From NCBI GenBank assembly GCA_015179125.1, contig WHVA01000336.1:1-64000 (forward strand): a stretch of 64,000 bases of DNA, read 5' to 3'. The notes below the pieces were generated by a model. That model saw nothing but the letters and a program-made list of their open reading frames with translations. It was not told the DNA's origin and did not search any database. The position numbers and the translations under genes were made by a program. The stretch is from Gautieria morchelliformis (taxonomy: Eukaryota; Basidiomycota; Agaricomycetes; Gomphales; Gomphaceae). Shown here piece by piece: positions 10,158 through 61,373 of the stretch (positions within the stretch are counted from its first letter, which is position 1; each line of letters starts with the position of its first letter).

Positions 10158-13100
10158 TTACCAGGACCTCTTGGTTAACTCCATGACTTGAATCTCCAGC
10201 TCTTCAGCATCCTTCCACCGGCCCTGATTCCGGTAGGTTGAAGCAAGGTTACCCATGGCCTTCAGGGTGTCAGGATGCTCCTCACCAAGGACCCTCTTCC
10301 TTGCCTCCATCACTTGAACCCCCAGCTCTTCAGCATCCTTCCACCGGCCCTGATTCTGATAGGTTGAAGCAAGGTTACCCATGGCCCCCAGGGTGTCAGG
10401 ATGCTCCTCACCAAGGACCCTCTTGCTTGCCTCCATGACTTGAATCTCCAGCTCTTCAGCATCCTTCCACCGGCCCTGATTCTGATAGGTTGAAGCAAGG
10501 TTACCCATGGCCCCCAGGGTGTCAGGATGCTCCTCACCAAGGACCCTCTTGCTTGCCTCCATGACTTGAATCTCCAGCTCTTCAGCATCCTTCCACCGGC
10601 CCTGATTCCAATAGGTTGAAGCAAGGTTACCCATGGCCCCCAGGGTGTCAGGATGCTCCTCACCAAGGACCCTGTTGCTTGCCTCCATGACTTGAATCTC
10701 CAGCTCTTCAGCATCCTTCCACCGGCCCTGATTCCAATAGGTTGAGGCCAGGTTGCCCATAGCCTTCAGGGTGTCAGGATGCTCCTCACCAAGGACCCTC
10801 TTCCTTGCCCCTATGACTTGAACCCCCAGCTCTTCAGCATCCTTCCACCGGCCCTGATCCAAATAGGTTGCAGCAAGGTTTGCCATGGTTAACAGGGTGT
10901 CAGGATGCTCCTCACCAAGGACCCTCTTCCTTGCCTCCATCACTTGAACCCCCAGCTCTTCAGCATCCTTCCACCAGCCCTGATTCCAATAGGTTGAGGC
11001 CAGGTTGCCCATAGCCTTCAGGGTTTCAGGATGCTCCTCACCAAGGACCCTCTTCCTTGCCTCCATCACTTGAACCCCCAGCTCTTCAGCATCCTTCCAC
11101 CGGCCCTGATTGCAATAGGTTGAGGCCAGGTTGCCCATAGCCTTCAGGGTGTCAGGATGCTCCTCACCAAGGACCCTCTTCCTTGCCCCTATGACTTGAA
11201 CCCCCAGCTCTTCAGCATCCTTCCACCGGCCCTGATCCAAATAGGTTGCAGCAAGGGTTGCCATGGTGAACAGGGTTTCAGGATGCTCCTCACCAAGGAC
11301 CCTCTTCCTTGCCTCCATCACTTGAACCCCCAGCTCTTCAGCATCCTTCCACCGGCCCTGATCAAAATAGGTTGAGGCAAGATTTCCCATAGCCAAAAGG
11401 GTGCCAGGATGCTCCTCACCAAGGACCCTCTTCCTTGCCTCCATGACTTGAACCCCCAGCTCCTCAGCATCCTTCCACCGGCCCTCATTCCAATAGGTTG
11501 TGGCAAGGTTTCCCATGGCCCCCAGGGTCTCAGGATGCTCCTCACCAAGGACCCTCTTCCTTGCCTCCATCACTTGAACCCCCAGGTCTTCAGCATCCTT
11601 CCACCGGCCCTGATTCCAATAGGTTGAGGCCAGGTTGCCCATAGCCCTCAGGGTGTCAGGATGCTCCTCACCAAGGACCCTCTTCCTAGCCTCTATGACC
11701 TTAATATCCAGCTCTTCAGCATCCTTCCATCGTCCTACTTCACTGAACACTGTTGCAAATTTTTCTGCCGCCATGTTTGAATCTGTAGCTTTTGTATGAA
11801 GCTCATTGATATGAGACAGAAGAGATCTCCTAAAAATATAATCCTCTGTACTACCTCCATATGTGATAGAAAGTGCTAGGATCTGCATTGCACACCCTTG
11901 CTTATTCTCCTGCTCTGCCACCTCTAGGTTATCTCGAGCCCATGCATGTACTAGTGGATGCAGGAAAAATGTACTGTCTTCTCCATCAGTACTAATTAAT
12001 GAGTATGAAGCTAATTCATTAATGATCTCCTGAAATTGAAAGTCACTCCAGCCACCATCTGTGGTTTGAAAGTTATGCAGAAATTGTCTTGCATCATCAA
12101 ATGGTCCATCTAGATCCATGACAGAAGCCTTTTGAAAGATGCTTTTGGAAATCCCCCTATAATGCAAAAATGCACACAGGTGTAGCAGGGTTGCTGCAAT
12201 GGGACTTAGCTTCTTAAAGCTAATTTCCCATGTTGTATATACTGCCCATGGATAATCATCCACCATTTGTACTGAGTGCTTGCTCATCAGTTGAGCTCGA
12301 TCCTTCTGAAAAATCTTCAGGTATTCATTTAGACTGCATCCCTTTGAGATATATGCACCAGCCTGTACAATGGCTAGGGCAAGACAACCAAGTTCTTTGA
12401 CAATCAGAGATGCCAAAGAAACATTCCTTGCATCATCTTTGACTGTAGAGAACACAAGAAGCAAATCAATAGCTTCCTCAGCATTCATACTTGACACATG
12501 ACAGCAGGAGTCCGGTGCATGCACACGACACTCCACATTGCGACTTGTCACAATGATATTCCCATGCTTGCATGGTGGGAAGTACTTTTGAAGGTTTATG
12601 TCACGATCATCTGCATTGTCCAGAAAGAGCAACCACCCTTGGTGTTGTCGAGCAAGCCAGAGAAGAGCATATTTGGCAGTCTCACCAATACCCTCTTCCC
12701 GTGCAATATCTTCAAGACCAGACTCCATAGTGGTCACACTACTTGCATCAATATAATAGACTCTCCAAAAGCTAAATGTAACACAAGTTAGTCCAAACAT
12801 AACAGACCCAGTTAAACTACACACCGTTGATGAAACTTTTCAATGAATGTCAATGCAATCTGTGTTTTCCCGGCCCCACCAAGCCCATACAACAGAAAGA
12901 TGTGCTGTTCCTTCTTAACAGTGGATGTCTGGTCTGGGAAGAAGTATCCCTCAAGTTGCAAAAGGATATCTACTCTTCCAGTAAATCTCCTTGTTGGTGG
13001 AGGACAAGCCTTACGGCGAGCTCCAGGTCGACTTGACAGCTGGCCAATAGTGCCTGCTCCTACAGTGTCTACCATAACCCATATGTCATCAGCTGTGAGG

Positions 13101-40984: not shown

Positions 40985-43900
40985 ATGTAAGTCTGATATT
41001 GATATCTGTATTCTCTCTCTACTCTTATGCCTGCATTTCTCAGGGATCCATCTACCCCAGAGAGCATCCGTCGGCAGGTGCGTCAAGGTGCGAGGGAGGG
41101 GCAGGAGGTGATGACACCACCCAGTCATCGGAGAGCGCGTCGGAGAGTGCATATTGGAGCTCAGAACCAGCCACCCCCTCCACCACCGCCTTTTGCCATC
41201 CCTCACCCTCCTTCTAGAAGCAGTGCAGCCGATCCTTTTCAACAACCTGTGGCAGGGCCATCACGTCCACCAATGCCTGCGGGGCCATCACTTGCTCCTG
41301 ATCCCAGTCCTACAGAGCAGGTGGCAGCCCTTCGTGCTCAGTTAGCAGTTATCACACCATGGCAGCCCCTGAGAGGACATAGGCCAGACCCTGTACAGCC
41401 AGCTCCATTGCGCCCTCCTACGCTTGCGGAGCCATCATATCCACCTGATCCCAGTCCTGGAGAGCAGGTGGCAGCCCTTCGTGCACAGTTAGCAGCTATC
41501 CCACGATTACAGCCCCTCAGAAGAAATAGGCCTGACGCTGGACAGCCAGCTCCTGTAGCAGGTTCTGCAGCAATTGCTCAGTTGCGTGCTCAGGCGGCTG
41601 GAATTGGACAACCTGTAGTAGGCTCTACAGCGGTGGCAGATTTGCGTGCTCATGCTGCTGGGTTACAGCCTATCCCAGCACAGCCCTTGGGAAGACACAG
41701 GCAGGCACCTTTACAACCAGCTCCTAGACCTCCTGTAGTAGGTTCTGCAGCAATTGCTCAGTTGCGTGCTCAGGCGGCTGGAATTGGACATTTGGCAGTA
41801 GGCTCTACAGCGGTGGCAGATTTGCATGCTCACACTGCTGGTATACAGCCTATCCCAGCACAGCCCTTGGGAAGACCCAGGCAGGCACCTTTACAACCAG
41901 CTCCTAGACCTCCTGTAGTAGGTTCTGCAGCGGTCGCAGCATTGCGGGCTCAGGCTAATGCAGTAAGACCAATGCCTCCGCTACTCCCTGCACTTCTGCG
42001 GCCTCTTCAGCGACTGCCTGCACCTCCTCGGCCTCCTCAGCCACTCCCTGCACCTCCTCAGCCTCCTCAGCCACTCCCTGCACCTCCACAGCCTCTTCAG
42101 CCACTCCTTGCACCTCCTCAGCCTCCTCAGCCACTCCCTGTACCTCGGCAGCGTCCTCAGCGACCTCCTCCTCCTGTTCCACTTGGTCGCTCTAGAATAA
42201 TTGAGGCAGATGTGCAGCGTCATGATCTGGGTCCCATGGTTATTCCCTGCCCTGACTGTGGAGCATTACACTGGATGGCAGAACGCCTGCAGAGATCCTC
42301 AAATCGGCGGCCCAGATTTGGTGATTGCTGTATGGAAGGAAAGGTGCAGCTTCCAGAGCTGCCAGTGTCCCCTCAGCCATTGAGACGGCTCTTAGAGGGC
42401 CAGGACCCTGAGGCCAAACAGTTTCGCCAGAACATCAGGCAGTACAATGCTGCATTTGCATTCACTTCCTTGGGAGCCGAGTTTGATCTAGATTTGCTTC
42501 GGGAGGGTCGTGGTCCATATGTCCTCAAGCCACAGGGCGAACTGTATCATATTCATGGCTCTCTCATCCCTAACCCTGGGAGGCGGATACAGTATGCCCA
42601 ACTTTATATCTATGATCCAGCATTGGCTTTGGCACAGAGGAACACCCGTAACCCAGGTCTGTCTCCAACTATCATGGGAGACTTGCAGGAAATGCTCCTC
42701 TTATGCAATCCTCATGTTCCCATATATAGACAAGCGGCTGAGAGGCTCAGAGCTCAGGGACAGAATGGTGAGATCCGGGCTAGGCTCACGTACAGGGAAC
42801 ACAGGGATCCTAGGAGGTATAATATCCCTACTGCGGATGAGATTGCGGTGGTTCTTCCTGGAGATGGCATCATCCCTGAACCTAGGGATATTATTGTCCA
42901 GCTCAAAGGTGGACATTTTAAAAGGGTATCCGATATGAATCCAAACTATGCCTCTCTTCACTATGTCTTGCTCTTTCCCAGGGGAGAGTTGGGGTGGCAA
43001 CCGGGTATTCGCTATCGCCAATTACCAGACGGGCGTGAGCGAAGTGGGCATGTCACCCAAATTCAGTTCCATTCCTATCGTCTCTTCCAGAGAACAGAAG
43101 AACCTACAACACTCCTGCGTGCTGGCAAATTATTCCAGCAGTACATTGTAGACTCTTGGGCCGCTGCAGAGCAAAGCAGGCTGTGGTGGATCAGGACAAA
43201 TCAACACACTCTCCGTGCTGAGATGTATAACCAGATGATGGATGCCTTTCATCGCAATGACAATGACAGAGATCCAAACAACTTGGGCATAAGATCCATT
43301 CTGCCTGCCACATTTCAGGGGGGGACACGGGACATGCAGGAAAACCTGCAGAACTCTCTGGCCATTTCAAGGAAGTATGGTGTGGCAGATCTCTTTATTA
43401 CCATGACTGCCAATCCCAACTGGCAGGAGGTATTGGATGCATTGTTGCCCGGACAAACTCCTCAGGACAGACCTGACCTGGTGTCGCGGGTGTTCCAGCT
43501 CAAAAAGAAATACCTCATTGACTTGATCGTCAAGGAAAAGATTTTTGGGGAAACCATCGCTCGCGTCCACACCATTGAATTCCAGAAAAGGGGACTCCCA
43601 CACATGCATATTCTTATCTGGTTTGAAAGAGATTCCAAGATCAGACATCCACATGAGGTGGATTCAATGATTTCGGCAGAGTTCCCTGATCCAGAGACTC
43701 ATCCTGTCCTCTACCGGTTGGTCTGTGAGCTGATGACACATGGTCCCTGTGGACAAATGAATCGAAACGCACCCTGCATGGAAAATGGCAAGTGCAAGAA
43801 AAACTTCCCAAAGCCATTCTGTGAGGAAACCAGTCTGAATGAGGATGGATATCCAAAATATCGTCGTCGCAATGATGGAAGGCTGCACAATGTCAGAGGT

Positions 43901-44578
43901 GACATGCTGGACAACAGATGGGTTGTGCCATACTCTGCCCTGCTCTTGCTCAAATTCTGGTGTCACATCAACCCTGAACTCACCATCAATGTGAGGTGTA
44001 TCAAGTATATCCACAAGTATCTCTACAAGGGCCATGATCGGACCACCATGGAGTTTGGTCGCACCCAGGATGAAATTAAGCAGTACCTGGACGCTCGCTA
44101 TGTCAGTGCTCATGAGGCCTGTTGGAGGTTGCTGGAGCGGGAAATCCACACCCAGGTGCCTGCAGTCATGGCACTGCCAGTCCATGAAAAGGACCACCAC
44201 ACAATCATCTTTGATCCCAACCAGGATGTGGACAACATCCTGGAAAGGGCTGAGGCGAAAAAGACACCGCTCATGGCTTACTTTGAGGCCAATGATATCT
44301 ACCCTGAAGCACGTGATCTGCTCTATGTGGAGTTTCCTGAGCATTTTACCTGGCAAGCACAGGAAAAGGTATGGACACCACGCCAAAGAAGTTTTAGCAT
44401 CGGTCACCTTCACTTTGCAAACCCTAAATCAGGAGAGAGATTTTTGTGCGCACTCTCCTCACAGTGGTCAAGGGGGCTAGATCCTTTGAGGAGCTTAGGT
44501 CGGTGGATGGCATACAATATGCTACTTACTAGGAGGCCTGTCGTGCAAGGGGACTTCTGGATGATGATCAGGAGTTGA
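40985..44578 (+). CDS. Helitron Rep protein (HUH rolling-circle replicase), HelA
   Basis: Rep half of a Helitron replicase-helicase, which nicks DNA and starts rolling-circle transposition in the nucleus. Start: splicing 40986 to 41044 (57-base GT-AG intron) joins AT to G and gives ATG GAT CCA in frame; an unspliced ATG at 41027 is the alternative. The N-terminal 350 residues are Pro/Gln/Ala-rich, with two 61-residue repeats (about 41560-41935) and a QPLPAPPQPP repeat. Then a zinc-like CPDCGALHW...CC motif (about residues 400-430), the HUH motif GLPHMHIL (about 854) and the two-tyrosine motif KYIHKYLYKG (about 988). A T run at 44441 has five T's against six in HelB, shifting the frame for the last 45 codons. 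Without that shift the frame would end at TAG 44530, which HelB also has. Confidence 0.88.
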
Positions 44579-45553
44579 GGTTGTGTCTCCAGGAAGCCAG
44601 TGGCATGAAAACAGGTGCTCAGCTCAGACATCTCTTTGCCACCATCCTTGGCCATTGCAATCCATCGGGCCCCGGCAGATTATGGGATGACTTCAGGGAG
44701 CACATATGTGATGATCTCAGACATCAGCTCCAAATCAGACATGGTATGCAGAATCCACAGGACGATCAGGTTTATGATTTTGGCCTCTTTCTCTTGGAAA
44801 AAATCCTCCAGCAGGGTGGAATGTCCTTGAGCAGCTTTGATGATATGCCTCGGGTGGCAGGCGAGTGGGAGGCCCTCATTGGAAACAGGTTCATAGCTGA
44901 GCAGAGGGACTATGACTGTGTTGAAGAGAGGAACATAGCTGATGAGGAGGTTCCCAGGCTGAATGAGGGGCAAAGGTCCACGCATGATCAGATATTACGG
45001 TCGGCACTGACCAGAGATGCTCATGGGAAACCTGATGGACAAATGTTTTTTGTCACTGGCTCAGGTGGCGCCGGGAAATCATTCACATGGAACACTCTAA
45101 TCCACTCCTGTAGAGCGGAGAGCCTCATTGTGATTGCAGTAGCCTCATCTGCAATGGCTGCACTTATCCTCACTAAGGGTACAACCTCTCATAGCATGCT
45201 TGGAATTCCCATTCCTGTCCATGAGCGCTCTTTCTCCTCCATCAAAAAGAACTCTGACAAGGCTGACATGCTGAGACAGACCAGTCTCCTCATCTGGGAT
45301 GAGGCTGCAATGCAGCATCGCCATGCCATAGAGGCCATTGACAGGACACTGAGGGATTTCCTTGACCAGCCTGACAGACCCTTTGGTGGCATCACAGTCA
45401 CCTTTGGAGGTGACTTTCAGCAGACTCTCCCAATTGTCCCTAAAGGCTCCAAGGAGGATATCGTGGGAGCTACCCTTCAGAAGTCATATCTGTTGCCAAA
45501 GATCAATGTCCTCCATCTGACAGAGACCATGCGGGTGAGAAATGACCCTGACA
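44575..45553 (+). CDS. Helitron Pif1-like helicase, HelA, truncated
   Basis: Continues the Rep protein after a stop. It contains Walker A TGSGGAGKS (near 45058), Walker B IWDEAA (near 45294), GGDFQQ (near 45408) and ends at HLTETMRVRNDPD. From 45554 the sequence no longer matches HelB and reaches a stop within about ten codons. Helicase motifs V and VI are therefore missing, and the protein should be inactive as a helicase. Up to the break it is nearly identical to HelB. The linker between Rep and helicase (44530-44575) is open apart from the TAG. Confidence 0.85.
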
Positions 45554-46503
45554 AGGCTATGTTTCTTGATAGATGAGATACTATATCAATATGTGATGTT
45601 TGAGAGAAAGTGGATGACAGAGAAGCGCTTTGAAACTCCGCCGATCGAGTCAACGTCCTCCTCCAATTCGCTCTTGGTCCAACTAAGCCACTAATTCTGT
45701 GTTTAAGAAGGTACGTTCTTACACAAGACCGACTGCCTTGGCCCTGCAGGTTTCACGTGATCCCATACATGCTGTCGGGTAACCTACATGTCGCCCTCGC
45801 CTTTGCTTCTTTTTCTTTGTCTTTTCTTCCCAAGGTGCGCTTACCCCCGCCACTGCTGATTTTGCTTCCGTTGGACGTGTCTTCATGGAGGCCTGAGTCT
45901 CACTTCGACGCGTCAGGATCTGCGTACAGATTGTGATCGTGTCTCAGTGAGAGGCTCACTCCGGCCTTATTTATCTGTCCCCTCGCGTCTTCTGTTGGCT
46001 CGCTCGCTTGTGTCGCACTCCCACATTCGCACAAGTGATTGAGTAGTAGTCTAGCTCACTATCCCCGCGCGTCCTCACTTCACGTAGCCTAGATTTTAGC
46101 TCTTTTGCTTCCTTTATCACTTTGTGTGTCATCCCCATATCAATCTATGGCCGACAATGGGTAGTCAACCGGACCACTCTATCCACGGAGATATCAGATA
46201 TCTCTGAAAATGCTGGACCTTCCGAGGCCGAAATCTCAGAGGACTGCCTCTCGCAGCGGCGGAGTGGAAAGACCTCCACCGCTACTGTTCTCCTCTTTTA
46301 CAAAACCTTGCCCGATAACGATAGAAGCGCACCGGCCTCAGAGGGTACATCGAAATGTGCATTAAAGTTGACTTCGAGCATGTAACCGCCGCAGCACGAT
46401 GGGGAGTGCGAGCTAACTCTCGGCTCTGCGCTATGCGCCGTCCCAACCTGGACTGAGCCGAATATTATGCAGGTTGTTGCGCAGGCACATCCTAGGAGTT
46501 CGA

Positions 46504-46612
46504 AATGGCGACAGACACACTTAACTGTTCAGAATCGTTTATAGGATCTAAACGAAGACATCCGGATTCTGAAGCTTCAGATACGACTTCGAGAAGGGCG
46601 AAACATCTCAAC
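46504..46612 (+). other. Possible captured first exon with a basic nuclear-type signal
   Basis: ATG in good context (CGAAATGGCG) opens a frame beginning MATDTLNCSESFIGSKRRH and continuing PDSEASDTTSRRAKHLN to a GTAACC donor-like site. Basic clusters KRR and RRAKH around an acidic stretch resemble a nuclear protein N-terminus. No downstream exon was located. The frame runs to TAA about 15 codons further if unspliced. Confidence 0.3.
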
Positions 46613-49087
46613 GTAACCAAGTTCTCCTCGCGGCGGCGTCAGCGAGCTCTGCCCTAAGCCAGCGCGTCGGCTACAAAGACACTCGCGCTTAAAGCCAACC
46701 ACTTGCTCGACCGACCGACTGACGAGATCTTCTGAATGCTCAATGCTCAGCGCTCAGTCCGAGTCCTTGTGCTGCAGTAGCCGATAAATTCAAGCGCACC
46801 CACCTTCCCTCGATCCCTCGATCCCCCGCCCACTGTCGCCGTGCAACCTCGTCTCAAATTATCCTGTACGTCCTGACACCTATTTCCCAACTCCTCGTGC
46901 CAAATTTCGACGACGATACCTTCATCTATGTCCTAGACGTGGCCATATCCTTGTACAGCTGCTAGTGTCGAAGTAGACCTTAGACACCTAGACACTGAGA
47001 TGCTGCTTCCTCCTAATTACGGGCCATGTGACGTGTCCCTGCAAGCCCAGCGAATTCCGAATCAACGTGAACGACAGACAACACAACTACGGCTGGCCCT
47101 CCCATCGTATATGGGTCGGTCGATAAACTCTCGCCCAAGGCATCCGATCAGGAGCAGCGTCCTGTGCACGATGAACGAACATCGGCGATTATAACGCTGT
47201 CCTGCGATCTCTCTATATATATTCAAGGATATTGAGGTTGCGCCAGACGTAAAACCTTCACTTACCTGGTACAGGGCGATGTGCTGGTAAATTTGCTCCG
47301 CGTCAGCTAGAAGCTGTTGTGGACATCCCCTGAACAGGAGTCAAGACAGTACAAGTGCTCTAGCTGTACGACACCATGACCTTCTGGTCTTGAGGTTTCA
47401 GGGAGAGCATGCGACGTGAACACTGAGCACTGAACACTGAACACTGAACACTGAATCTCAATTAAATGGATGAATGTTTTTTTTCAGACGCGGAACGTCG
47501 CCGCACGGCCAGCTCCAGACCTACTCCAGGGCAAGATCCTCCGTTTTACTGGAAATTAGGAATAATATAATGGCGACGTCCAGCTCGCATTACATAGAAT
47601 ATAATACAAGACATCACAGCCGGGGGTATAATCTCGTAGAGTATCAGATGAAGCCAAAAAAAAAGAAAGAAAAGCGGAGTCAGCCCTTCAAAGGGAGTGA
47701 TCCTAATGCACGCAGGACCTCAAACCCATCTTCGTATACGCCACGTCATCGTGAGCGCGAGCCTATTCACATTCGCGAACAGTGCACAGCGCGGCCCTCC
47801 ACGCGCCTGCGCCCATCATGCTCCTCCTCCGGCCCCCTCGGGCTCTTCCCACCCTACCTGATCGCCAGCATCCTAACCACGCACTCCATCCGCGGCTGCC
47901 CCCGACCAGCCGTATCGCATCCGCATTATCGTCCCCTGCGCACCTTCGCGCCTCCGCGCCCACCGGGAAACCTCATATACCGGTGACGCAGCAGCGAAAT
48001 TACAATATGCAGACCTCCCGCTGGCAGCGTATTCCGAAGGCACCAAACGTCGCCTCCAAAGTCTACACGCCTCTCTGGATACTTATGAATGACGTCTTGC
48101 TTGCAGAATAAGCTTCCCGCAGGCCTTCCTCGCAACGCAAGGGCGTAGGGTCAAAAAGGGGCGGAATGGAAGTCGAGCTATCGGTATGTGGAATGGTGGC
48201 GTACGCAACACGTTCAAGGTGTTTAGCTACTCACACCAAGAGCAAACAATTATACATGGAGGAAGGCCATTGTGGTGCTACGTCCAGTTACAAGTCCGCA
48301 CGCTAGAGAGAACCTAGAATGTTCTCACAGCACAAACCTGCGATCTGCTGCAGGACGTAAGTGCGTGGCAAAGGCGTGGCATCGGAAACTTGGAATGCCG
48401 GCCGGTGACATGTGGTTTTTGAGACGTGGAATTAATAATGCCAGGAAGCCACGAGGCACCTGGGAAGACAAGGACAAACCTCATGGATATGTCTCATGAT
48501 TGACTGGGCCCATCCTTTGACGCAGCAGTAAGATATGTATCTCTATTGCCAACCTATCAGGCCTGCTCCGAATCAATGGGACTCCAGAGTTTACAGCGAA
48601 GACGGGAGAGCTCACGTGCACTGATCATCACCATGAACTTGGAGAACAGCGATCACCGATTCATGATTATAAAGTATTGGGGTTCCGAGAAGGTCACGCT
48701 CCGGCTGTAACATTTTGAAATAGGTGCGCCGGAATACAACAGCCATGTGCTTCTTACAAGCCTTCAAGCTTCACAGGTCGAAGTCCAACGCCATCCGGTA
48801 AACATTTTTAAGCCCCGATGTCACTTGTTCACGTGGAATATTTTCTCCGCCTTCTGTGAGTGCCCAAAACATGCTTAGATATTCTTCGCTAGAAGCTAGC
48901 GTTATCGTGTCAGGGACACCCTATTATTGCGACTCGACAGGATCGATCTGAGCTTGGTCTACATTTGACTGGATGCCGTCAGGTATCCACGTTTTTTGAC
49001 ACGTAAACTCTATAATGCCGTTCCCAGGGTATCGGACTCAACGCAGGCGTGTATTAGGATGACTATTCGTGTGTTGACCCAAGTAGA

Positions 49088-49095
49088 TATATAAA
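49088..49095 (+). promoter_or_regulatory. TATA box of the captured gene
   Basis: TATATAAA lies 57 bases before the ATG at 49145, followed by pyrimidine-rich sequence (CTGACTCTCCC) just before the start. The position is normal for a fungal promoter. Confidence 0.55.
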
Positions 49096-49144
49096 GGACA
49101 TGCGTTCCTTTCCCTGTCGCAACATACTCTGACTCTCCCATACC

Positions 49145-49995
49145 ATGCACTATTACAGCAATACCTCTGGGCACAGGCGAGTCTTGCCATTCAATGCCGT
49201 ATCTCTGCACGCTGACATATGATACCACGATGCATTAGCACCTATGATCAGTACACTGCTTCGGTCTCCCCGGCCTGGACCAACAACCTCGGCCAACCTT
49301 CTCAGTACGTTTCGTGTTTCTGTCAGAGCGCAGAAAAACTCACTGGCCCACACACAGGTCAGAATCTCATCACTTTGTGAGGCGGGACTTCCCGCAGAGT
49401 GCTCAGACAGCTGAGAATGGTGCGGAGTACCTGCGGTATGCAAAGACCTTTTCTGTGTAACAGCACATATCTGACCTGTTTATCAGATGTCAGGAGACTG
49501 GACCGCCTCATCTACCGCAAGAGCGGTCCACAAACAACAACGCTCCTGAGGGTGTCGCCCAAGAACTTGGGCCGATGTCATGCAGTGTGGCTCCCAGCGG
49601 GGAGATTGACTGGACAACCCTGTCATACGCCGCCCTCATTGATTACTTCAGGTAGGCAGAGAATTTTTTGTGTAATAGGACATAAGTATCTGACCTAGTT
49701 CATAAGCGTTCAAGACACTGGGCATATGTCTGTACCGCAGGAATACGCGTGGTACCAAGACAATGGCGCACCAGCGTATCAGGCAAACACCTCTTGCTCT
49801 TCCGATAGCGGAGGTGATGACTGCCCAGATGGTGGGCCAAACATGTGCGTGCCTTCGCGTGTGTTCGACAGACAGAGATATAACCCTGGCGCATGCTACA
49901 GGCCCACCATCGAACTAAACATTCTTATTACAACCAGGGGGACGCGTGGACCACCACGGCCACCCCACCGGCAGCAAAAAATGTTGCCAGTTTGA
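49145..49995 (+). CDS. Unrecognised five-exon gene carried inside HelA
   Basis: Exons 49145-49198, 49252-49304, 49358-49435, 49487-49651 and 49707-49995 join in matching phases to 213 codons including the stop. The four GT-AG introns are 53, 53, 51 and 55 bases, most with a CTGAC or CTCAC branch-like sequence. The product begins MHYYSNTSGHRRVLPFNAYT, is rich in Ser, Gln, Asn, Pro and Gly, has a cluster of cysteines around CSSDSGGDDCPDGGPNMC, and lacks a signal peptide or membrane segment. I do not recognise the family; the composition resembles a disordered regulatory protein. The last 25 residues (Arg/Pro-rich) may be read-through beyond the true 3' limit of the captured part. It has the same strand as Rep and its own TATA box. 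Confidence 0.6.
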
Positions 49996-50271
49996 TGGCG
50001 GGATCCCGGCTATGCAGCCGGATCCAATACCCGACTTGCCTTCCGGAGTAACTGCGAACATGAGGGGAACACGGCTTGAGGATGGGTCGGCGGACGTTTG
50101 GACACAACCAACATTGTATATAAAGATGTATTACTTAGAGCTCCTTGATTTTTTTATATCCACTTCTCTTCATATGGTTTATGTGTGTTACTTGATTTTA
50201 CTTGATGCAAATTGGTTACTTTTATTTTCCCCAATGCACTTGACCTTACCGATGCGTTTGACCTACACCCC

Positions 50272-50298
50272 CGCGCTTCGCGCGGGTACCCACCTAGT
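50272..50298 (+). repeat. HelA 3' terminal hairpin and CTAG end
   Basis: CCCGCGC and GCGCGGG form a GC-rich stem with a short TTC-type loop, followed by TACCCACCTAG. Same structure occurs at 50770, 56772, 59007 and 61216 (inverted) and, decayed, at 62682. Confidence 0.88.
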
Positions 50299-50769: not shown

Positions 50770-50918
50770 CTAGGTGGGTACCCGCGCGAAGCGCGGGGGT
50801 GTAGGTCAAACGCATCGGTAAGGTCAAGTGCATTGGGGAAAATAAAAGTAACCAATTTGCATCAAGTAAAATCAAGTAACACACATAAACCATATGAAGA
50901 GAAGTGGATATAAAAAAA

Positions 50919-52694
50919 TCAAGGAGCTCTAAGTAATACATCTTTATATACAATGTTGGTTGTGTCCAAACCCTCCTCAAGCAAGACCTTCACTCTGTTC
51001 CAGTTGGTCCCTCTTGATACACCAACATACAACTGACCATGTCCAAACACTGGATATCTCAGGTCCAGCCCAACCGTACCCAAAGACTGTCCCTGAGACT
51101 TGTTGATAGTCATTGCAAATGCCAAACGCACTGGAAACTGCCTCCTTTTCAGCACAAATGGCAACTCTCCCTCTGATGGCTTAATGATGATCCTGGGGAT
51201 GAAAGCAATATTTCCTGCACATGGACCTGAGATGATCCTGACCTCCAACACTCTAATGCTTATCCTCACCAACCGCAACCTTGTCCCATTGCATAGTCCT
51301 TGCTTCTGATCCAAATTGCGCAACAGCATCAGAGGCACTCCAGGCTTGACTTCCAAGCGAGCAGGAGGAAGACAGCCCATCTCTATGGAATTCAGATACT
51401 CCACAGGATACCGATCTGCATCGTCGGACTCTTCAATGGAATTTGCACAGTGCAAGACCTGAGCATCACCTGGAAACTCCCTAAACACCATGGAATTGAT
51501 CTCATTGACCTCAGTGTTTCTGGCACAGAGGATGGCACGCTCCAAAAAGTAATTGTCCTGGGCAGGGACATGATTGCCAATGCCAGGGTATATTTCCTGG
51601 ATCAGATCTTCAATTCCAGGGCCACAAACCATGTGAGGAGGGAGTGAGAACGTATGATCTAGTGGGAGATCCTTTCCCTGGCCCACATTCTGCAGCCATT
51701 CTGCAAACCTGGCTCTGTCAGGGTCATTTCTCACCCGCATGGTCTCTGTCAGATGGAGGACATTGATCTTTGGCAACAGATATGACTTCTGAAGGGTAGC
51801 TCCCACGATATCCTCCTTGGAGCCTTTAGGGACAATTGGGAGAGTCTGCTGAAAGTCACCTCCAAAGGTGACTGTGATGCCACCAAAGGGTCTGTCAGGC
51901 TGGTCAAGGAAATCCCTCAGTGTCCTGTCAATGGCCTCTATGGCATGGCGATGCTGCATTGCAGCCTCATCCCAGATGAGGAGACTGGTCTGTCTCAGCA
52001 TGTCAGCCTTGTCAGAGTTCTTTTTGATGGAGGAGAAAGAGCGCTCATGGACAGGAATGGGAATTCCAAGCATGCTATGAGAGGTTGTACCCTTAGTGAG
52101 GATAAGTGCAGCCATTGCAGATGAGGCTACTGCAATCACAATGAGGCTCTCCGCTCTACAGGAGTGGATTAGAGTGTTCCATGTGAATGATTTCCCGGCG
52201 CCACCTGAGCCAGTGACAAAAAACATTTGTCCATCAGGTTTCCCATGAGCATCTCTGGTCAGTGCCGACCGTAATATCTGATCATGCGTGGACCTTTGCC
52301 CCTCATTCAGCCTGGGAACCTCCTCATCAGCTATGTTCCTCTCTTCAACACAGTCATAGTCCCTCTGCTCAGCTATGAACCTGTTTCCAATGAGGGCCTC
52401 CCACTCGCCTGCCACCCGAGGCATATCATCAAAGCTGCTCAAGGACATTCCACCCTGCTGGAGGATTTTTTCCAAGAGAAAGAGGCCAAAATCATAAACC
52501 TGATCGTCCTGTGGATTCTGCATACCATGTCTGATTTGGAGCTGATGTCTGAGATCATCACATATGTGCTCCCTGAAGTCATCCCATAATCTGCCGGGGC
52601 CCGATGGATTGCAATGGCCAAGGATGGTGGCAAAGAGATGTCTGAGCTGAGCACCTGTTTTCATGCCACTGGCTTCCTGGAGACACAACCTCAA
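50919..52694 (-). CDS. Helitron Pif1-like helicase, HelB, complete
   Basis: A 591-codon frame with the Pif1/RecD-type motifs in order: Walker A TGSGGAGKS (161-169), Walker B IWDEAA (240-245), GGDFQQTLP (278-286), HLTETMR, and near the end AFAMTINKSQGQSLG plus GQLYVGVSRGTN (motifs V and VI). It unwinds DNA during rolling-circle transposition. The ATG used here (internal to the linker MRLCLQEASG) follows the TAG at 52739-52737; in other Helitrons this part is fused to Rep. It ends TTNIVYKDVLLRAP, the usual Helitron C-terminus. Nearly identical to HelA up to 51716. Confidence 0.9.
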   Translation of the reverse strand: MRLCLQEASGMKTGAQLRHLFATILGHCNPSGPGRLWDDFREHICDDLRHQLQIRHGMQNPQDDQVYDFGLFLLEKILQQGGMSLSSFDDMPRVAGEWEALIGNRFIAEQRDYDCVEERNIADEEVPRLNEGQRSTHDQILRSALTRDAHGKPDGQMFFVTGSGGAGKSFTWNTLIHSCRAESLIVIAVASSAMAALILTKGTTSHSMLGIPIPVHERSFSSIKKNSDKADMLRQTSLLIWDEAAMQHRHAIEAIDRTLRDFLDQPDRPFGGITVTFGGDFQQTLPIVPKGSKEDIVGATLQKSYLLPKINVLHLTETMRVRNDPDRARFAEWLQNVGQGKDLPLDHTFSLPPHMVCGPGIEDLIQEIYPGIGNHVPAQDNYFLERAILCARNTEVNEINSMVFREFPGDAQVLHCANSIEESDDADRYPVEYLNSIEMGCLPPARLEVKPGVPLMLLRNLDQKQGLCNGTRLRLVRISIRVLEVRIISGPCAGNIAFIPRIIIKPSEGELPFVLKRRQFPVRLAFAMTINKSQGQSLGTVGLDLRYPVFGHGQLYVGVSRGTNWNRVKVLLEEGLDTTNIVYKDVLLRAP

Positions 52695-52736
52695 CTCCTG
52701 ATCATCATCCAGAAGTCCCCTTGCACGACAGGCCTC

Positions 52737-55700
52737 CTAGTAAGTAGCATATTGTATGCCATCCACCGACCTAAGCTCCTCAAAGGATCTAGCCCCCTTG
52801 ACCACTGTGAGGAGAGTGCGCACAAAAAATCTCTCTCCTGATTTAGGGTTTGCAAAGTGAAGGTGACCGATGCTAAAACTTCTTTGGCGTGGTGTCCATA
52901 CCTTTTCCTGTGCTTGCCAGGTAAAATGCTCAGGAAACTCCACATAGAGCAGATCACGTGCTTCAGGGTAGATATCATTGGCCTCAAAGTAAGCCATGAG
53001 CGGTGTCTTTTTCGCCTCAGCCCTTTCCAGGATGTTGTCCACATCCTGGTTGGGATCAAAGATGATTGTGTGGTGGTCCTTTTCATGGACTGGCAGTGCC
53101 ATGACTGCAGGCACCTGGGTGTGGATTTCCCGCTCCAGCAACCTCCAACAGGCCTCATGAGCACTGACATAGCGAGCGTCCAGGTACTGCTTAATTTCAT
53201 CCTGGGTGCGACCAAACTCCATGGTGGTCCGATCATGGCCCTTGTAGAGATACTTGTGGATATACTTGATACACCTCACATTGATGGTGAGTTCAGGGTT
53301 GATGTGACACCAGAATTTGAGCAAGAGCAGGGCAGAGTATGGCACAACCCATCTGTTGTCCAGCATGTCACCTCTGACATTGTGCAGCCTTCCATCATTG
53401 CGACGACGATATTTTGGATATCCATCCTCATTCAGACTGGTTTCCTCACAGAATGGCTTTGGGAAGTTTTTCTTGCACTTGCCATTTTCCATGCAGGGTG
53501 CGTTTCGATTCATTTGTCCACAGGGACCATGTGTCATCAGCTCACAGACCAACCGGTAGAGGACAGGATGAGTCTCTGGATCAGGGAACTCTGCCGAAAT
53601 CATTGAATCCACCTCATGTGGATGTCTGATCTTGGAATCTCTTTCAAACCAGATAAGAATATGCATGTGTGGGAGTCCCCTTTTCTGGAATTCAATGGTG
53701 TGGACGCGAGCGATGGTTTCCCCAAAAATCTTTTCCTTGACGATCAAGTCAATGAGGTATTTCTTTTTGAGCTGGAACACCCGCGACACCAGGTCAGGTC
53801 TGTCCTGAGGAGTTTGTCCGGGCAACAATGCATCCAATACCTCCTGCCAGTTGGGATTGGCAGTCATGGTAATAAAGAGATCTGCCACACCATACTTCCT
53901 TGAAATGGCCAGAGAGTTCTGCAGGTTTTCCTGCATGTCCCGTGTCCCCCCCTGAAATGTGGCAGGCAGAATGGATCTTATGCCCAAGTTGTTTGGATCT
54001 CTGTCATTGTCATTGCGATGAAAGGCATCCATCATCTGGTTATACATCTCAGCACGGAGAGTGTGTTGATTTGTCCTGATCCACCACAGCCTGCTTTGCT
54101 CTGCAGCGGCCCAAGAGTCTACAATGTACTGCTGGAATAATTTGCCAGCACGCAGGAGTGTTGTAGGTTCTTCTGTTCTCTGGAAGAGACGATAGGAATG
54201 GAACTGAATTTGGGTGACATGCCCACTTCGCTCACGCCCGTCTGGTAATTGGCGATAGCGAATACCCGGTTGCCACCCCAACTCTCCCCTGGGAAAGAGC
54301 AAGACATAGTGAAGAGAGGCATAGTTTGGATTCATATCGGATACCCTTTTAAAATGTCCACCTTTGAGCTGGACAATAATATCCCTAGGTTCAGGGATGA
54401 TGCCATCTCCAGGAAGAACCACCGCAATCTCATCCGCAGTAGGGATATTATACCTCCTAGGATCCCTGTGTTCCCTGTACGTGAGCCTAGCCCGGATCTC
54501 ACCATTCTGTCCCTGAGCTCTGAGCCTCTCAGCCGCTTGTCTATATATGGGAACATGAGGATTGCATAAGAGGAGCATTTCCTGCAAGTCTCCCATGATA
54601 GTTGGAGACAGACCTGGGTTACGGGTGTTCCTCTGTGCCAAAGCCAATGCTGGATCATAGATATAAAGTTGGGCATACTGTATCCGCCTCCCAGGGTTAG
54701 GGATGAGAGAGCCATGAATATGATACAGTTCGCCCTGTGGCTTGAGGACATATGGACCACGACCCTCCCGAAGCAAATCTAGATCAAACTCGGCTCCCAA
54801 GGAAGTGAATGCAAATGCAGCATTGTACTGCCTGATGTTCTGGCGAAACTGTTTGGCCTCAGGGTCCTGGCCCTCTAAGAGCCGTCTCAATGGCTGAGGG
54901 GACACTGGCAGCTCTGGAAGCTGCACCTTTCCTTCCATACAGCAATCACCAAATCTGGGCCGCCGATTTGAGGATCTCTGCAGGCGTTCTGCCATCCAGT
55001 GTAATGCTCCACAGTCAGGGCAGGGAATAACCATGGGACCCAGATCATGACGCTGCACATCTGCCTCAATTATTCTAGAGCGACCAAGTGGAACAGGAGG
55101 AGGAGGTCGCTGAGGACGCTGCCGAGGTACAGGGAGTGGCTGAGGAGGCTGAGGAGGTGCAAGGAGTGGCTGAAGAGGCTGTGGAGGTGCAGGGAGTGGC
55201 TGAGGAGGCTGAGGAGGTGCAGGGAGTGGCTGAGGAGGCCGAGGAGGTGCAGGCAGTCGCTGAAGAGGCCGCAGAAGTGCAGGGAGTAGCCGAGGCATTG
55301 GTCTTATTGCATTGGCCTGAGCCAGCAATGCTGCCACTCCTGAAGAACCTACTTCAGAAGGATTAGCTGCCTGTCTACCTCTTCCCAATTGCTGCAATAT
55401 AGCAGACTGCTCAGCAGCCTGAGCACGCAACTGTGCAATTCCTGCAGAACCAACCACAGGAAGATTGGGAGGTGGCCGTATAGGCTCCTGCCTGTATCTT
55501 CTCACAGGCTGTGCTGCTGGGATTGCTGCTAACTGAGCACGCAGGGCTGCCACCTGCTGTCCAGGACTGGGATCCGGAGGACGTGACGCCCTGCAGGCAT
55601 AGGAGGACGTGGTGGCCCTGCAAGGATAGGAGGACGTGATGGCCCAGCCACAGGTTGTTGAAAAGGATCAGCGACATTGCTTCTAGGAGGAGGGCGAGGG

Positions 55701-55924
55701 ATGGCAAAAGGCTGTCGTGGAGGGGGAGGCTGGTCCTGAGCTCTGACAGCAGCAGCAGCAAGTGCACGCGCTCTCCGATCAGTGGGCGACGTCATATGAC
55801 CCTCCTGCTCCTCCCTTGCCCTTTCACGCTCCTGCTGAAGATTTCTCTCTGGAGTAGAAGGATCCCTGAGAAATGTAGGCATAAGCTTAGAGGAACAATC
55901 AAGCTACCCCACTTCAACTTACAT
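52737..55924 (-). CDS. Helitron Rep protein, HelB
   Basis: Same architecture as HelA Rep: zinc-like CPDCGALHW...CC, HUH GLPHMHIL and two-tyrosine KYIHKYLYKG. The start is formed by splicing 55923 to 55865 across a 57-base GT-AG intron, joining AT to G (ATGGATCCT); the intron position equals that of HelA. The N-terminal Pro-rich region is shorter and clearly different from HelA up to about 55325; beyond that the two are nearly identical. A frame change near 55590 separates the first 110 codons from the rest. The frame ends at TAG 52739-52737 where comparison with Helitron proteins suggests the reading should go on into the helicase. Confidence 0.85.
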
Positions 55925-56771
55925 TTGCAAGCAGATGCTGTTGTTGTTAATTTTTCTTGGGCAAAGTCAGGGGAATTTATTAATTTCTAATTAAATAAAA
56001 GTCAGACAGCTCACACCAGACCACAGAGAAATACATACATACCAAGGAAGGGACAGGGAGTTTGTTTGTTAGGCAAAGTCAAGGGAATTTATTAATTTCT
56101 ATTTAAAAAAAAAAAAAAAATGTCAGATGGCTCACACCAGACCACAGACAAATATATGTACCAAGGAAGGGATGGGGAATTTTTTTGATGAAAATATCCA
56201 AGTCTTCTTCGGCTATCCAACTGGAATAATTCCAGTAAAAGGTCCTGGTCCTGGTCCTGGTCCTGGTCCTGGGGAGATGTCTTCTTCAGCCACCAGTAGT
56301 GCAAGTCAACACTAAGAGAACTGCAATGCAATTGTGGCTCCCTCTAAGGCAGCCTGGGATGATTACCTGGCTCCTTAGCAGAGAAAAAGCTGCCCCACTG
56401 AAGAGGTCAACCCCAATAGTTCACAGCAGAGATCTCCCTGGGAAGAGATCTTTTGTAGTCTACACTATATAGGCTATCTATTAATTCACTCTCACGCAAT
56501 TTTATTCTATCTAGAGGGCAGAGAGGAGAGGAGGGTGGTGGTGGAGTGCGCAAAAGCGGCTGCGCAGCGTTCTGCCAGCGCAGCGCGGCTTTGAGCGCTT
56601 GAGCCACCAGAACGCTGTGCAGCCTCGAGCGCTGGAGCCGGCAGACCGGCGTGAACCGCGGGTAGGGCGTAGGGCTCGCGGCTGCGCCGCTCGCGCGCTC
56701 TGCTGACAAACTAATGACCAAGCATTGGTCAGCGGGCCCACAACCACCCACCCCCGTGTTTAACTCTTAGA

Positions 56772-58927
56772 CTAGGTGGGTACCCGCGCTTCGCGCGGGG
56801 GTGTAGCTCAAACGCCTTGGTAAGGTCAAATGCATCAGTAAGGTCAAGTGAATCAGTAAGGTCAAGTGCATTGGGGTAAATAGGATCATGCAAAATATAT
56901 CCCTGTTCATATAGTATCATGAGTCATGTATGCACCCATGGAACAGCCGAACATGCAGAGCTCTCTCTCGACCTCTGGGATGGCCCTCCCAGCGACTCTA
57001 GTAATGGTCTTGACTGAATCATCAGAGATTATAAGATTGCGCCTATTGTCATAATCCACAGGTTTCAAAGCTTGTGCATTGTGAAATAGATCCAATAGTG
57101 ATCTTGGGGATCCTGAATTTTGACAATGGGGTTATATTGATGTGCCAGCTGATCCTCCGGTGACACTCTCACAGAACCAGAAACAATACCAAAATCAGAA
57201 ATGGGGGAAGACCCAAAGTGCCAGTTGGGTAGCATGTCCTCACACATAACATGTCCTCACAGGTAGTGTGTCCCCACACATAACCTGTCCTCACAGGTAG
57301 CATGTCCCCCTATGTAACGTGTCCCCACCGGTAGTGTGTCCCCCCACGTAACGTGTCCCCACCATTAGCGTGTCCCCCCACGTAACGTGTCCCCACCGGT
57401 AGCGTGTCCCCACCAGTAGTGTGTCCCCACCGGTAGCGTGTCCTCACATGTAATGCGTCCCCACTGGTAGCGTGTCCTCACATGTAACGTGTCCCCACAC
57501 GTAATGTGTCCTCACACATAACGTGTCCCCACAGGTAGCGTGTCCTCACAGGTAGGGTGTCCCCACATGTAACGTGTCCTCACACGTAATGTGTCCTCAC
57601 AGGTAGCATGTCCCCACACGTAACGTGTCCCCACACATAACTCCCCACACATAACATGTCCCACACGTAACGTGTCCTCACATGTAACATGTCCTTACAT
57701 GTAACGTGTCCCCACAGGTAGCGTGTCCTCACACGTAACATGTCCTCACAGGTAACATGTCCCCACAGGTAGTGTGTCCTCACACGTAACGTGTCCTCAC
57801 AGGTAGCGTGTCCCCATATGTAACGTGTCCTCACAGGTAGCGTGTCCTCACACGAAAGGTGTCCCCACACGTAATGTGTCCTCACAGGTAGCATGTCCCC
57901 ACACATAATGTGTCCCCACATGTAACATGTCCTCACAGGTAGCGTGTCCTCACACGTAACATGTCCTCACAGGTAACCTGTCCCCACAGGTAACCTTTCC
58001 CCACAGGTAACCTGTCCCCACAGGTAGTGTGTCCTCACATGTAACGTGTCCTCACAGGTAGCATGTCCTCACACATATCAGGGACATGTATCAGTATCTA
58101 TTTTGTGACATATATAAAATAGGAAAAGAAACCACATTTAAGCAGCTGTTGTCATTAATTTTAGCAAAGTCAGGATAATTTATTGATATCTACCTTTTGA
58201 AAAAATGTCACAAAGATGTACAGTACATTTAAGCTGAAGCTGGTATTAATTTTAGCAAAGTCAGGATAATTCATTGATATCTATATTTATTTTTTGAAAA
58301 AAGATAAAAAAAAAACACACTACATTTAGCAAAGTCAGAATAAGTTATTGATATCTATTTGCGAAAAAATATCAAAAAAATGTACAGGATATTTAAGTTG
58401 GCTGTTATTAAGGTTAGGAAGTTAGATTTATTGATCTCTATCTGCGAAAAAATATCAAAAAAATGTACAGGATATTTAAGTTGGCTATTATTAAGGTTAG
58501 CAAGTTAGGTGTATTGATAGCAATTTGCGAAGAAATATCAAAAAATATACAGGACATTGAAGCAGAAGCTGGTGTCAATTCACAGCCAAAGAAGCCCAGA
58601 GACACCCAGAGACACACAGAAAGACACCCAGAGACACACAGAAAGACACCAAGACCCCAGCCAAAGCAGTAGTAAGCCCACCACAGCCAGAACACAGGAG
58701 GACACCAGTAGGGAGTGCGGTTCTGCAGCATCGCTCTCTTTATACCAAGCGAAGGGTCGTGCACGGACCACTCGCGTATGGTCGCGAACCGGTCACGTGA
58801 CCTGGAACGCTGCTGCGCAGCGTTTGTAGCTCGCGGCTGCGCCGCTCGCGCGCTCCGCTGACAAACTAATGACCAAGCATTGGTCAGCGGGCCCACAACC
58901 ACCCACCCCCCGCGTTTAACTCTTAGA
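56772..58927 (-). mobile_element. Non-autonomous Helitron H2
   Basis: 5' TCTAAGAGTTAAACG at 58927, 3' hairpin and CTAG at 56772, 2156 bases, no protein. Its 3' CTAG touches the 5' TCTAAGAG of HelB with no base between. Internal order from the 5' end: GC-rich block with hairpin, AGAGACACACAGAAAGACACC repeat (two full units), several 60-90-base units containing GCAAAGTCAGGATAA and AAAAAATATCAAAAAAATGTACAG, the 17-base minisatellite, and a 3' region with a short frame (57095-56907) shared with H3. Confidence 0.85.
57232..58078. repeat. 17-bp minisatellite in H2
   Basis: About 50 tandem units of GTGTCC(T/C)CACA(G/C)GTA(G/A)C, with two main alternating variants (CAGGTAGC and CACGTAAC). Long minus-strand frames rich in Arg, Thr, His, Tyr, Val (for example 57936-57580) come from the repeat and are not genes. 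Confidence 0.92.
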
Positions 58928-59006
58928 TATCTCTTTTTTAATGCATTCCAATGTATTTGATTTGATTTGTGTTTATAATTTTATTGGTTCCTTTTTTTTT
59001 ATCATA
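58928..59006. other. 79-bp spacer between H2 and H3
   Basis: AT-rich sequence with no Helitron similarity, the only unique DNA between HelB and H3. It shows that H2 and H3 were not produced solely by perfect tandem copying. Confidence 0.6.
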
Positions 59007-61215
59007 CTAGGTGGGTACCCGCGCTTCGCGCGGGGGTGTAGGTCAAACGCCTTGGTAAGGTCAAATGCATCAGTAAGATCAAGTGAATCAGTAAGGTCAA
59101 GTGCATTGGGGTAAATAGGATCATGCAAAATATATCCCTGTTCATATAGTATCATGAGTCATGTATGCACCCATGGAACAGCCGAACATGCAGAGCTCTC
59201 TCTCAACCTCTGGGATGGCCCTCCCAGCGACTCTAGACATGAAAGTGGTAATGGTCTTGACTGAATCATCAGAGATTATAAGATTGCGCCTATTGTCATA
59301 ATCCACAGGTTTCAAAGCTTGTGCATTGTGAAATAGATCCAATAGTGATCTTGGGGATCCTGAATTTTGACAATGGGGTTATATTGATGTGCCAGCTGAT
59401 CCTCCGGTGACACTCTCACAGAACCAGAAACAATACCAAAATCAGAAATGAGGAAAGACCCAAAGTGCAGTTGGGTAGCATGTCCTCACACATAACATGT
59501 CCTCACAGGTAGTGTGTCCCCACACATAACCTGTCCTCACAGCTAGCATGTCCCCCTACGTAACGTGTCCCCACCGGTAGTGTGTCGCCCCACGTAACGT
59601 GTCCCCACCGTTAGCGTGTCCCCCCATGTAACGTGTCCCCACCGGTAGTGTGTCCCCCCACGTAACGTGTCCCCACCGGTAGCGTGTCCCCACCGGCAGT
59701 GTGTCCCCACCGGTAGCGTGTCCCCACCGGCAGTGTGTCCCACCGGTAGCGTGTCCTCACATGTAATGTGTCCCCACTGGTAGCGTGTCCTCACATGTAA
59801 TGTGTCCCCACACGTAATGTGTCCTCACACATAACGTGTCCCCACAGGTAGCGTGTCCTCACAGGTAGCGTGTCCCCACATGTAACGTGTCCTCACACGT
59901 AACGTGTCCTCACACGTAATGTGTCCTCACAGGTAGCATGTCCCCACACGTAACGTGTCCCCACACATAACTCCCCACACATAACATGTCCCACACGTAA
60001 CGTGTCCTCACATGTAACATGTCCTTACATGTAACGTGTCCCCACAGGTAGCGTGTCCTCACAGGTAACATGTCCCCACAGGTAGTGTGTCCTCACAGGT
60101 AGCGTGTCCCCATATGTAACGTGTCCTCACAGGTAGCGTGTCCTCACACGAAAGGTGTCCCCACACATAATGTGTCCTCACAGGTAGCATGTCCCCACAC
60201 ATAATGTGTCCCCACATGTAACATGTCCTCACAGGTAGCGTGTCCTCACACGTAACGTGTCCTCACAGGTAACCTGTCCCCACAGGTAACCTTTCCCCAC
60301 AGGTAACCTGTCCCCACAGGTAGCATGTCCCCACAGGTAGTGTGTCCTCACATGTAACGTGTCCTCACAGGTAGCATGTCCTCACACATATCAGGGACAT
60401 GTATCAGTATCTATTTTGTGACATATATAAAATAGGAAAAGAAACCACATTTAAGCAGCTGTTGTCATTAATTTTAGCAAAGTCAGGATAATTTATTGAT
60501 ATCTACCTTTTGAAAAAATGTCACAAAGATGTACAGTACATTTAAGCTGAAGCTGGTATTAATTTTAGCAAAGTCAGGATAATTCATTGATATCTATATT
60601 TATTTTTTGAAAAAGATAAAAAAAACACACACTACATTTAGCAAAGTCAGAATAAGTTATTGATATCTATTTGCGAAAAAATGTCAAAAAAATGTACAGG
60701 ATATTTAAGTTCGCGGTTATTAAGGTTAGGAAGTTAGATTTATTGATCTCTATCTGCGAAAAAAATATCAAAAAAATGTACAGGATATTTAAGTTGGCTG
60801 TTATTAAGGTTAGCAAGTTAGGTGTATTGATAGCAATTTGCGAAGAAATATCAAAAAATATACAGGACATTGAAGCAGAAGCTGGTGTCAATTCACAGCA
60901 AAGAAGCCCAGAGACACCCAGAGACACACAGAAAGACACCCAGAGACACACAGAAAGACACCCAGAGACACACAGAAAGACACCAAGACCCCAGCCAAAG
61001 CAGTAGTAAGCCCACCACAGCCAGAACACAGGAGGACACCAGTGGGGAGTGCGGTTCTGCAGCATCGCTCCGCGAACCGGTCACGTGACCTGGAACGCTG
61101 CTGCGCAGCGTTTGTAGCTCGCGGCTGCGCCGCTCGCGCGCTCCGCTGACAAACTAATGACCAAGCATTGGTCAGCGGGCCCACAACCACCCACCCCCCG
61201 CGTTTAACTCTTAGA
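59007..61215 (-). mobile_element. Non-autonomous Helitron H3
   Basis: 5' TCTAAGAGTTAAACG at 61215, 3' hairpin and CTAG at 59007, 2209 bases. Nearly identical to H2 along its length. It has one more AGAGACACACAGAAAGACACC unit (three against two), lacks about 40 bases of H2 near the GGTCGTGCACGG block, and has a differently arranged minisatellite. Its 5' end touches the 3' CTAG of the next element (H4) with no base between. Confidence 0.85.
59478..60388. repeat. 17-bp minisatellite in H3
   Basis: Same unit as in H2, about 53 units. The order of variants agrees with H2 over long stretches but differs by gains and losses of units (for example extra CACCGGTAG/CACCGGCAG units near 59640-59760). 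Confidence 0.92.
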
Positions 61216-61373
61216 CTAGGTGGGTACCCGCGCTTCGCGCGGGGGTGTAGGTCAAACGCCTCAGTAAGGTCAAACACATCAGCAAGGTCAAATGCCTTGG
61301 GTAAATCAAACTTGGGATAAGTCAAACACATTCAGATAAGTAAAACACATCTTATTGATTGAAGGTAGGTAAT
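61216..61373 (-). mobile_element. Helitron H4 3' end
   Basis: CTAGGTGGGTACCCGCG...CGCGGGGGTGTAGGTCAAACGCC followed by AAGGTCAAA repeats, as at the other 3' ends, then GATTGAAGGTAGGTAATG. At this point an LTR-like sequence begins. The same TAGGTAATG recurs at 62797-62805 in H5, so H4 is probably truncated or interrupted here. Confidence 0.75.

Follow-up and report, generated by a model that had tools for sequence, protein, structure and literature searches.

A Helitron of the fungus Gautieria morchelliformis with a captured host gene segment in place of part of its helicase

How does a transposable element come to carry a piece of a host gene inside its own helicase? This question is raised by the first 64,000 nucleotides of contig WHVA01000336.1 in the Gautieria morchelliformis assembly GCA_015179125.1 (C378:1-64000; the window), in which two Helitrons, HelA on the forward strand and HelB on the reverse strand, face each other 3' to 3'. 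The window was compared with the genome (122 Mb in 1113 contigs) by DNA searches that scored at most 40 candidates each (for example, of 1465 for the 3' block of HelA), and the copy counts given here are lower bounds. It is likely that HelA, which belongs to an abundant Helitron family, had 744 bp of its helicase gene replaced by 4542 bp that were copied from a host cluster of zinc-finger-like genes.

Three features by which Helitrons are recognised are present here: a Rep domain, a PIF1-type helicase and a 3' hairpin followed by a CTRR end before a T. In HelA, an open reading frame (ORF) at 41027..44578 (+) encodes the Rep protein (Helitron_like_N, Pfam PF14214, E=1.3e-57) and is followed by a truncated helicase ORF at 44575..45576 (+), which matches positions 2-192 of the 223-position PIF1 profile and has no Pif1_2B match. 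The 3' block of the element (50096..50297, +; 40 matches listed, including HelA and HelB) contains a perfect 7-bp hairpin at 50270-50286, identified by eye, and ends in CTAG (50294-50297), after which comes a T. HelB (50770..55924, -; 5' end not fixed) has a fuller helicase that matches PIF1 over positions 2-216 of 223 and also Pif1_2B.

The first-pass annotation of the window had described HelA and HelB as matching on both sides of an unrelated insert. This holds for 41980-45553 (3574 bp) and for a 206-bp 3' block, over both of which HelA and inverted HelB have no differences, and fails for 41017-41979: the two are 79% alike over 41017-41299, and the remainder, up to 41979, gave only patchy repeat matches of 75-85%. 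The matching arm has 12 differences at its 5' edge. Such 5' parts that differ (41017-41979 versus 55412-55892), with no differences from 41980 onwards, form a pattern like that left by gene conversion or template exchange.

Sequence comparison confirmed that HelA has 4542 bp (45554..50095, +) where HelB has 744 bp of helicase (50972..51715, -), and the stop codon of the HelA helicase ORF lies no more than 23 bases from the left junction. The joins are nearly blunt: the left shares 1 bp (the A at 45553, which could be assigned to either side) and the right shares none. In the one event 744 bp were lost and 4542 bp gained. The missing stretch is common elsewhere, with 40 matches to 50972-51704 listed at 99-100% identity, including HelB; these are the best 40 of 611 candidates and by construction only copies that possess the stretch, and thus say nothing about how many Helitrons are without it. 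In 20 of these 40 copies the 3' block lies within 3 bp of the helicase stretch, and the same uninterrupted arrangement was recognised by eye in seven more (C204, C181, C47, C139, C74, C179 and C1103) and is also present on C930; 12 copies could not be assigned. When each junction was used as an 80-bp probe, only HelA matched end to end among the 40 matches listed for each (of 422 and 414 candidates), and the insert is therefore single-copy as far as those searches reach.

The origin of the insert was sought by aligning it to the rest of the genome (62 matches including HelA, from the best 40 of 209 candidates), and likely donor contigs were found. Among the matches listed, C851 was closest on the left, with no differences in 364 bp from 45553, and on the right C245 was 99.3% identical over 2360 aligned positions (47738-50095) and C29 99.2% identical over 978 (49120-50095). 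Host sequence continues past both captured edges: beyond the left junction C851 has other sequence, and beyond 50095 C245 and C29 carry the remainder of a gene. Since these two contigs run past the edge into the rest of that gene, the insert is captured host DNA, and the proposal that the 5' part of a host gene had replaced part of the helicase is supported. A further copy of the cluster, on C471, is collinear with 45765-50095 apart from two additional stretches, each of about 216 bp, and is 96-97% identical, falling to 88% from 49259 to 50095.

C245 and C29 are 99.6% alike over 2685 bp and are perhaps two haplotypes. The HelA segment differs from C245 at 20 aligned positions and from C29 at eight, seven of which fall in 49912-50037. 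Within that interval HelA is nearer to a paralogue on C426 (three differences) than to C29 (seven), and over 49654-49891 it is identical to C29 and has eight differences from C426. HelA therefore likely carries a patch of paralogue sequence in 49912-50037, to judge by this alignment.

The capture could have begun with a break or stalled replication inside HelA, and the break would then have been repaired by copying from the gene cluster, as in filler DNA or template switching, with loss of the helicase sequence. A different route is end bypass, which involves read-through beyond the element's own end, the acquisition of a new 3' end and later rearrangement, as the available part of a study of Pleurotus proposes for genes downstream of RepHel (PMC4289320). 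This is a very improbable origin for the HelA insert, which sits within the helicase gene and is followed directly by the family's own 3' block, with no differences from HelB. Taken together, the site of the insert within the element, the retained native 3' block, the local deletion and the near-absence of shared bases at the joins favour repair or template switching over end bypass. The idea that a separate transposon landed in HelA draws on the presence of gene family members in dispersed repeats that share a sharp 5' edge, yet it seems scarcely credible: HelA is missing 744 bp, the segment breaks off on the right within a frame that the donor carries further, its left edge does not coincide with the 5' edge of the family, and no other place spans both edges among the 62 matches from the best 40 of 209 candidates. 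An assembly chimera, in which a Helitron contig was joined to a contig of the zinc-finger-like cluster, would be consistent with C851, C245 and C29 all ending inside the segment, as happens where assembly graphs tangle. However, the Helitron resumes in order on both sides, so that the assembly would have to contain two false joins between sequences without homology, and the differences of the segment from C245 (20) and C29 (8) mark it as a separate copy; a chimera is thus improbable.

Repair by copying from the host cluster could also have involved HelB. In this refinement, which does not exclude the explanation just given, a break in HelA would have been repaired from its inverted neighbour, with a jump to the host cluster. 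It is suggested by the complete identity over 3574 bp and 206 bp beside the insert even though the 5' parts differ; eight other copies (C612 left out) have 6-19 mismatches to the HelA arm 44446-45553 over 490-1057 aligned bp. A recent common origin with a chimeric 5' end would look alike, however, and those other copies were compared over only part of the arm, so the involvement of HelB is put forward tentatively.

Several observations weigh against capture from the host cluster by repair. No contig carries the whole donor, as C851, C245 and C29 all end inside the segment, and C851 would have to adjoin C245. The switch in likeness between C29 and C426 means that the exact donor copy is not pinned down. 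Frame-shifting 1-bp differences occur in the C245 copy as well as in HelA, and any of these indels may be an assembly error. Copies extend the match upstream as far as the probe reaches (40100), and the 5' TC end, expected at an A^T site, was not located. Finally, under the filler-DNA model the joins should show short stretches of shared sequence, according to the part available of a study of insect Helitrons (PMC6544945), and HelA has 1 bp on the left and 0 on the right; as such sequences are hardly present, the process is described here as working like filler DNA, and the definition is not claimed for it.

A second capture was found on C612, in a Helitron that is 91% identical to the HelA arm over 1107 bp (99 mismatches). 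In its 3' region (L024 4034-4784) this element carries the equivalent of 47719-48367 (649 bp, 96%) instead of about 29 bp, followed by Helitron sequence with a hairpin and CTAG. Used as a 751-bp probe, the region matched whole only at C612 among 57 matches (best 40 of 499 candidates), and in each of the 17 further copies listed with a match to the flanks, the two flanks occur together, separated by 29 bp (left flank to probe position 53). The C612 joins share about 2 bp and 0 bp. As C612 differs from HelA in element, position and breakpoints, its capture happened independently, with a cluster of the same kind as source. It might be imagined that the zinc-finger-like cluster is a preferred donor, from which at least two diverged Helitrons copied overlapping parts to different sites within the element, with capture steered by the structure or nuclear position of the donor and not random; this broader proposal is unlikely.

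Sequence related to the captured segment, 84% identical to part of it, also lies within a unit of 6.6-8.3 kb shared at 99.5-99.6% by loci on C1012 (L018 1621-9901), C214 and C609. These loci were considered as possible captures; an exact scan for the 3'-end motif found none in them, and it is insensitive: of the loci scanned it hit only L001, L029, L030 and L031, passing over established Helitron loci, L032-L036 and L024 among them. Pfam searches of the three loci were uninformative.

What the segment encodes was examined against an alignment of HelA with nine relatives. The TATA-like box TATATAAA is present at 49088..49095 (+) as first described, and is kept in five of the six relatives with sequence there (not in C155). 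The five exons that had been proposed do give a frame of 213 codons, counting the stop, when introns of 53, 53, 51 and 55 bases, each bounded by GT and AG, are removed. Taken alone, a spliced frame of this length is not unusual for the stretch, as 18 of 60 dinucleotide shuffles reach at least 213 codons; the longest frame obtainable from 49088-50095, when no more than four GT..AG introns, each 45-70 bases long, are allowed, is 239 codons, and 8 of 60 shuffles reach 239. The frame is thus not beyond chance, and the support for a gene comes from its relatives. GT and AG are kept at introns 49305-49357, 49436-49486 and 49652-49706 in 7 of 7, 8 of 8 and 9 of 9 relatives with sequence, counts that are not all independent because C245 and C29 have nearly the same sequence. 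The description of a cleanly spliced five-exon gene therefore stands for introns 2-4 and not for intron 1 or the end of exon 5.

Among the eight rows with sequence at the proposed intron 1 (49199-49251), C505 is without the donor and C155 without both ends, and in all four paralogue rows with GT at 49177 (C471 twice, C478 and C155) the family frame meets a stop inside the proposed exon 1; C478 has two extra bases after the ATG. The proposed intron 1 is therefore probably wrong. A first intron at 49177-49238 fits those four rows, and the revised model would have exon 1 at 49145..49176 and exon 2 at 49239..49304 (both +). The exon 1 donor at 49177 is GC in HelA, C245, C29 and C505. These same four are without 206-221 bp that follow 49259 in C471 (two copies), C478 and C155. 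An inserted element was rejected as the source of the extra bases: they read as the remainder of one exon, then an intron, then the beginning or another portion of the following exon, and a deletion in the line of HelA, C245, C29 and C505 is therefore simpler. Exons 3 (49358..49435, +) and 4 (49487..49651, +) are flanked by introns kept in the relatives. Exon 5 (49707..50095, +) is cut by the capture edge and shows 1-bp gaps relative to C29 near 49911-49915 and at 50007, which place the last 27 or so codons of the first-pass product, from about 49911 onwards, out of the family frame.

In the donor, the frame past 50095 reaches a C-x3-C ... H ... C motif that reads as zinc-finger-like, and the captured gene belongs to a large family with this kind of C-terminus. 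The captured copy is without this part, which lies past the capture edge; lacking the working end of the gene, it is therefore probably non-functional. The copied promoter and first exons may be transcribed, and would give a product without the zinc finger. HelA itself, without the second half of its helicase, would probably be mobile only with help from intact relatives.

Two more features of the segment lie upstream of the gene. The degenerate 3' part of a second array gene at 47544..47965 (-), found through blastn and tblastn matches with stops, is related to an open frame of 434 aa that neighbours the donor gene on C245. A block at 48837..48970 (+) resembles, by eye, the sharply edged 5' block of the gene family at L047, and both blocks have matches at C937, C269 and C155. 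Of the 40 listed matches to the 5' block (L047 1318 on, C564:6317), 24 begin at the same base by eye, and several family copies are 93-99% alike over kilobases. The gene family may, on the pattern of these repeats, be spread by an element of some kind.

The first-pass annotation had not recognised the gene family, and no known name could be assigned to it after Pfam and Protein Data Bank (PDB) searches. Pfam gave nothing for the 212-residue first-pass product (E up to 0.1), or for the 143-aa donor C-terminus and the 434-aa neighbouring frame (E up to 1). A relative on C417 scored 9 bits against the C2H2 zinc-finger family (PF00096), for which the cut-off is 25.2 (E=2.7), and relaxed Pfam searches returned only sub-threshold matches (zf-C2H2, E=2.7; zf-TRAF, E=0.2). 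In the PDB, one relative gave three weak matches (best 2gli, E=0.07) and another gave none.

A protein search with the C417 relative found 101 matching stretches (138 candidates, all scored), 25 of which are at least 82% identical and have no internal stop. The ratio of nonsynonymous to synonymous substitution rates (dN/dS) was 0.5-1.1 in 60 of 66 pairs of 12 family frames (full range 0.40-1.68), which supports constraint weakly at best. In the five more diverged relatives in which introns 3 and 4 both align (C471 twice, C478, C505 and C930), exons 3-5 taken together differ from HelA at least as much as those introns do, and strong constraint is therefore not shown; this comparison left out C155, whose row is unrelated beyond 49731, and C426, which aligns in part. 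For 49358-49905 and its relatives, the exon divergence and dN/dS read as relaxed or diversifying change.

Elsewhere in the window, three more Helitron 3'-end-like sequences lie in the orientation of HelB at 56751-56850, 58986-59085 and 61195-61294, and 17-bp tandem repeats start near 57139. At 10041-11852 there is a tandem repeat with a 126-bp period, for which 13 overlapping copies of 300 nt were listed; an open frame of 888 aa on the reverse strand overlaps it.

HelA is a clear case of a known process, gene capture. How Helitrons acquire host DNA is described as still debated in the part available of the insect study (PMC6544945). Its placement had been called unusual, which it is, without being unique: internal capture is reported there for insect Helitrons, and the second Helitron, on C612, holds a piece of the same type of cluster. 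As far as that source goes, Hel1A of Spodoptera frugiperda carries internal host pieces with source loci, which its authors read as filler DNA (PMC6544945). Host pieces were gained inside the element in both cases; the Hel1A joins have 2-13 bp in common and amplification of the elements is described, whereas HelA has joins of 1 and 0 bp and was found once. HELPO1 of Pleurotus ostreatus likewise belongs to the fungal RepHel Helitrons bearing gene-like sequences. According to the available part of that report (PMC4289320), the genes borne by Pleurotus Helitrons have no known origin and capture of host genes is said not to occur, with filler DNA invoked by the authors for one non-autonomous copy, HELPO1.3; unlike HELPO1, HelA has host donor contigs and a captured piece that replaces helicase sequence. 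A limited literature comparison found no fungal Helitron capture with a mapped donor, though others may be in print; a review seen in part (PMC13317346) concerns plants.

With near-identical donors, readable joins, many uninterrupted relatives and a second capture, models of capture become testable in one genome. The HelA capture also bears on the conclusion, as given in the part of the Pleurotus report available (PMC4289320), that the Helitrons of that fungus take up no host genes.
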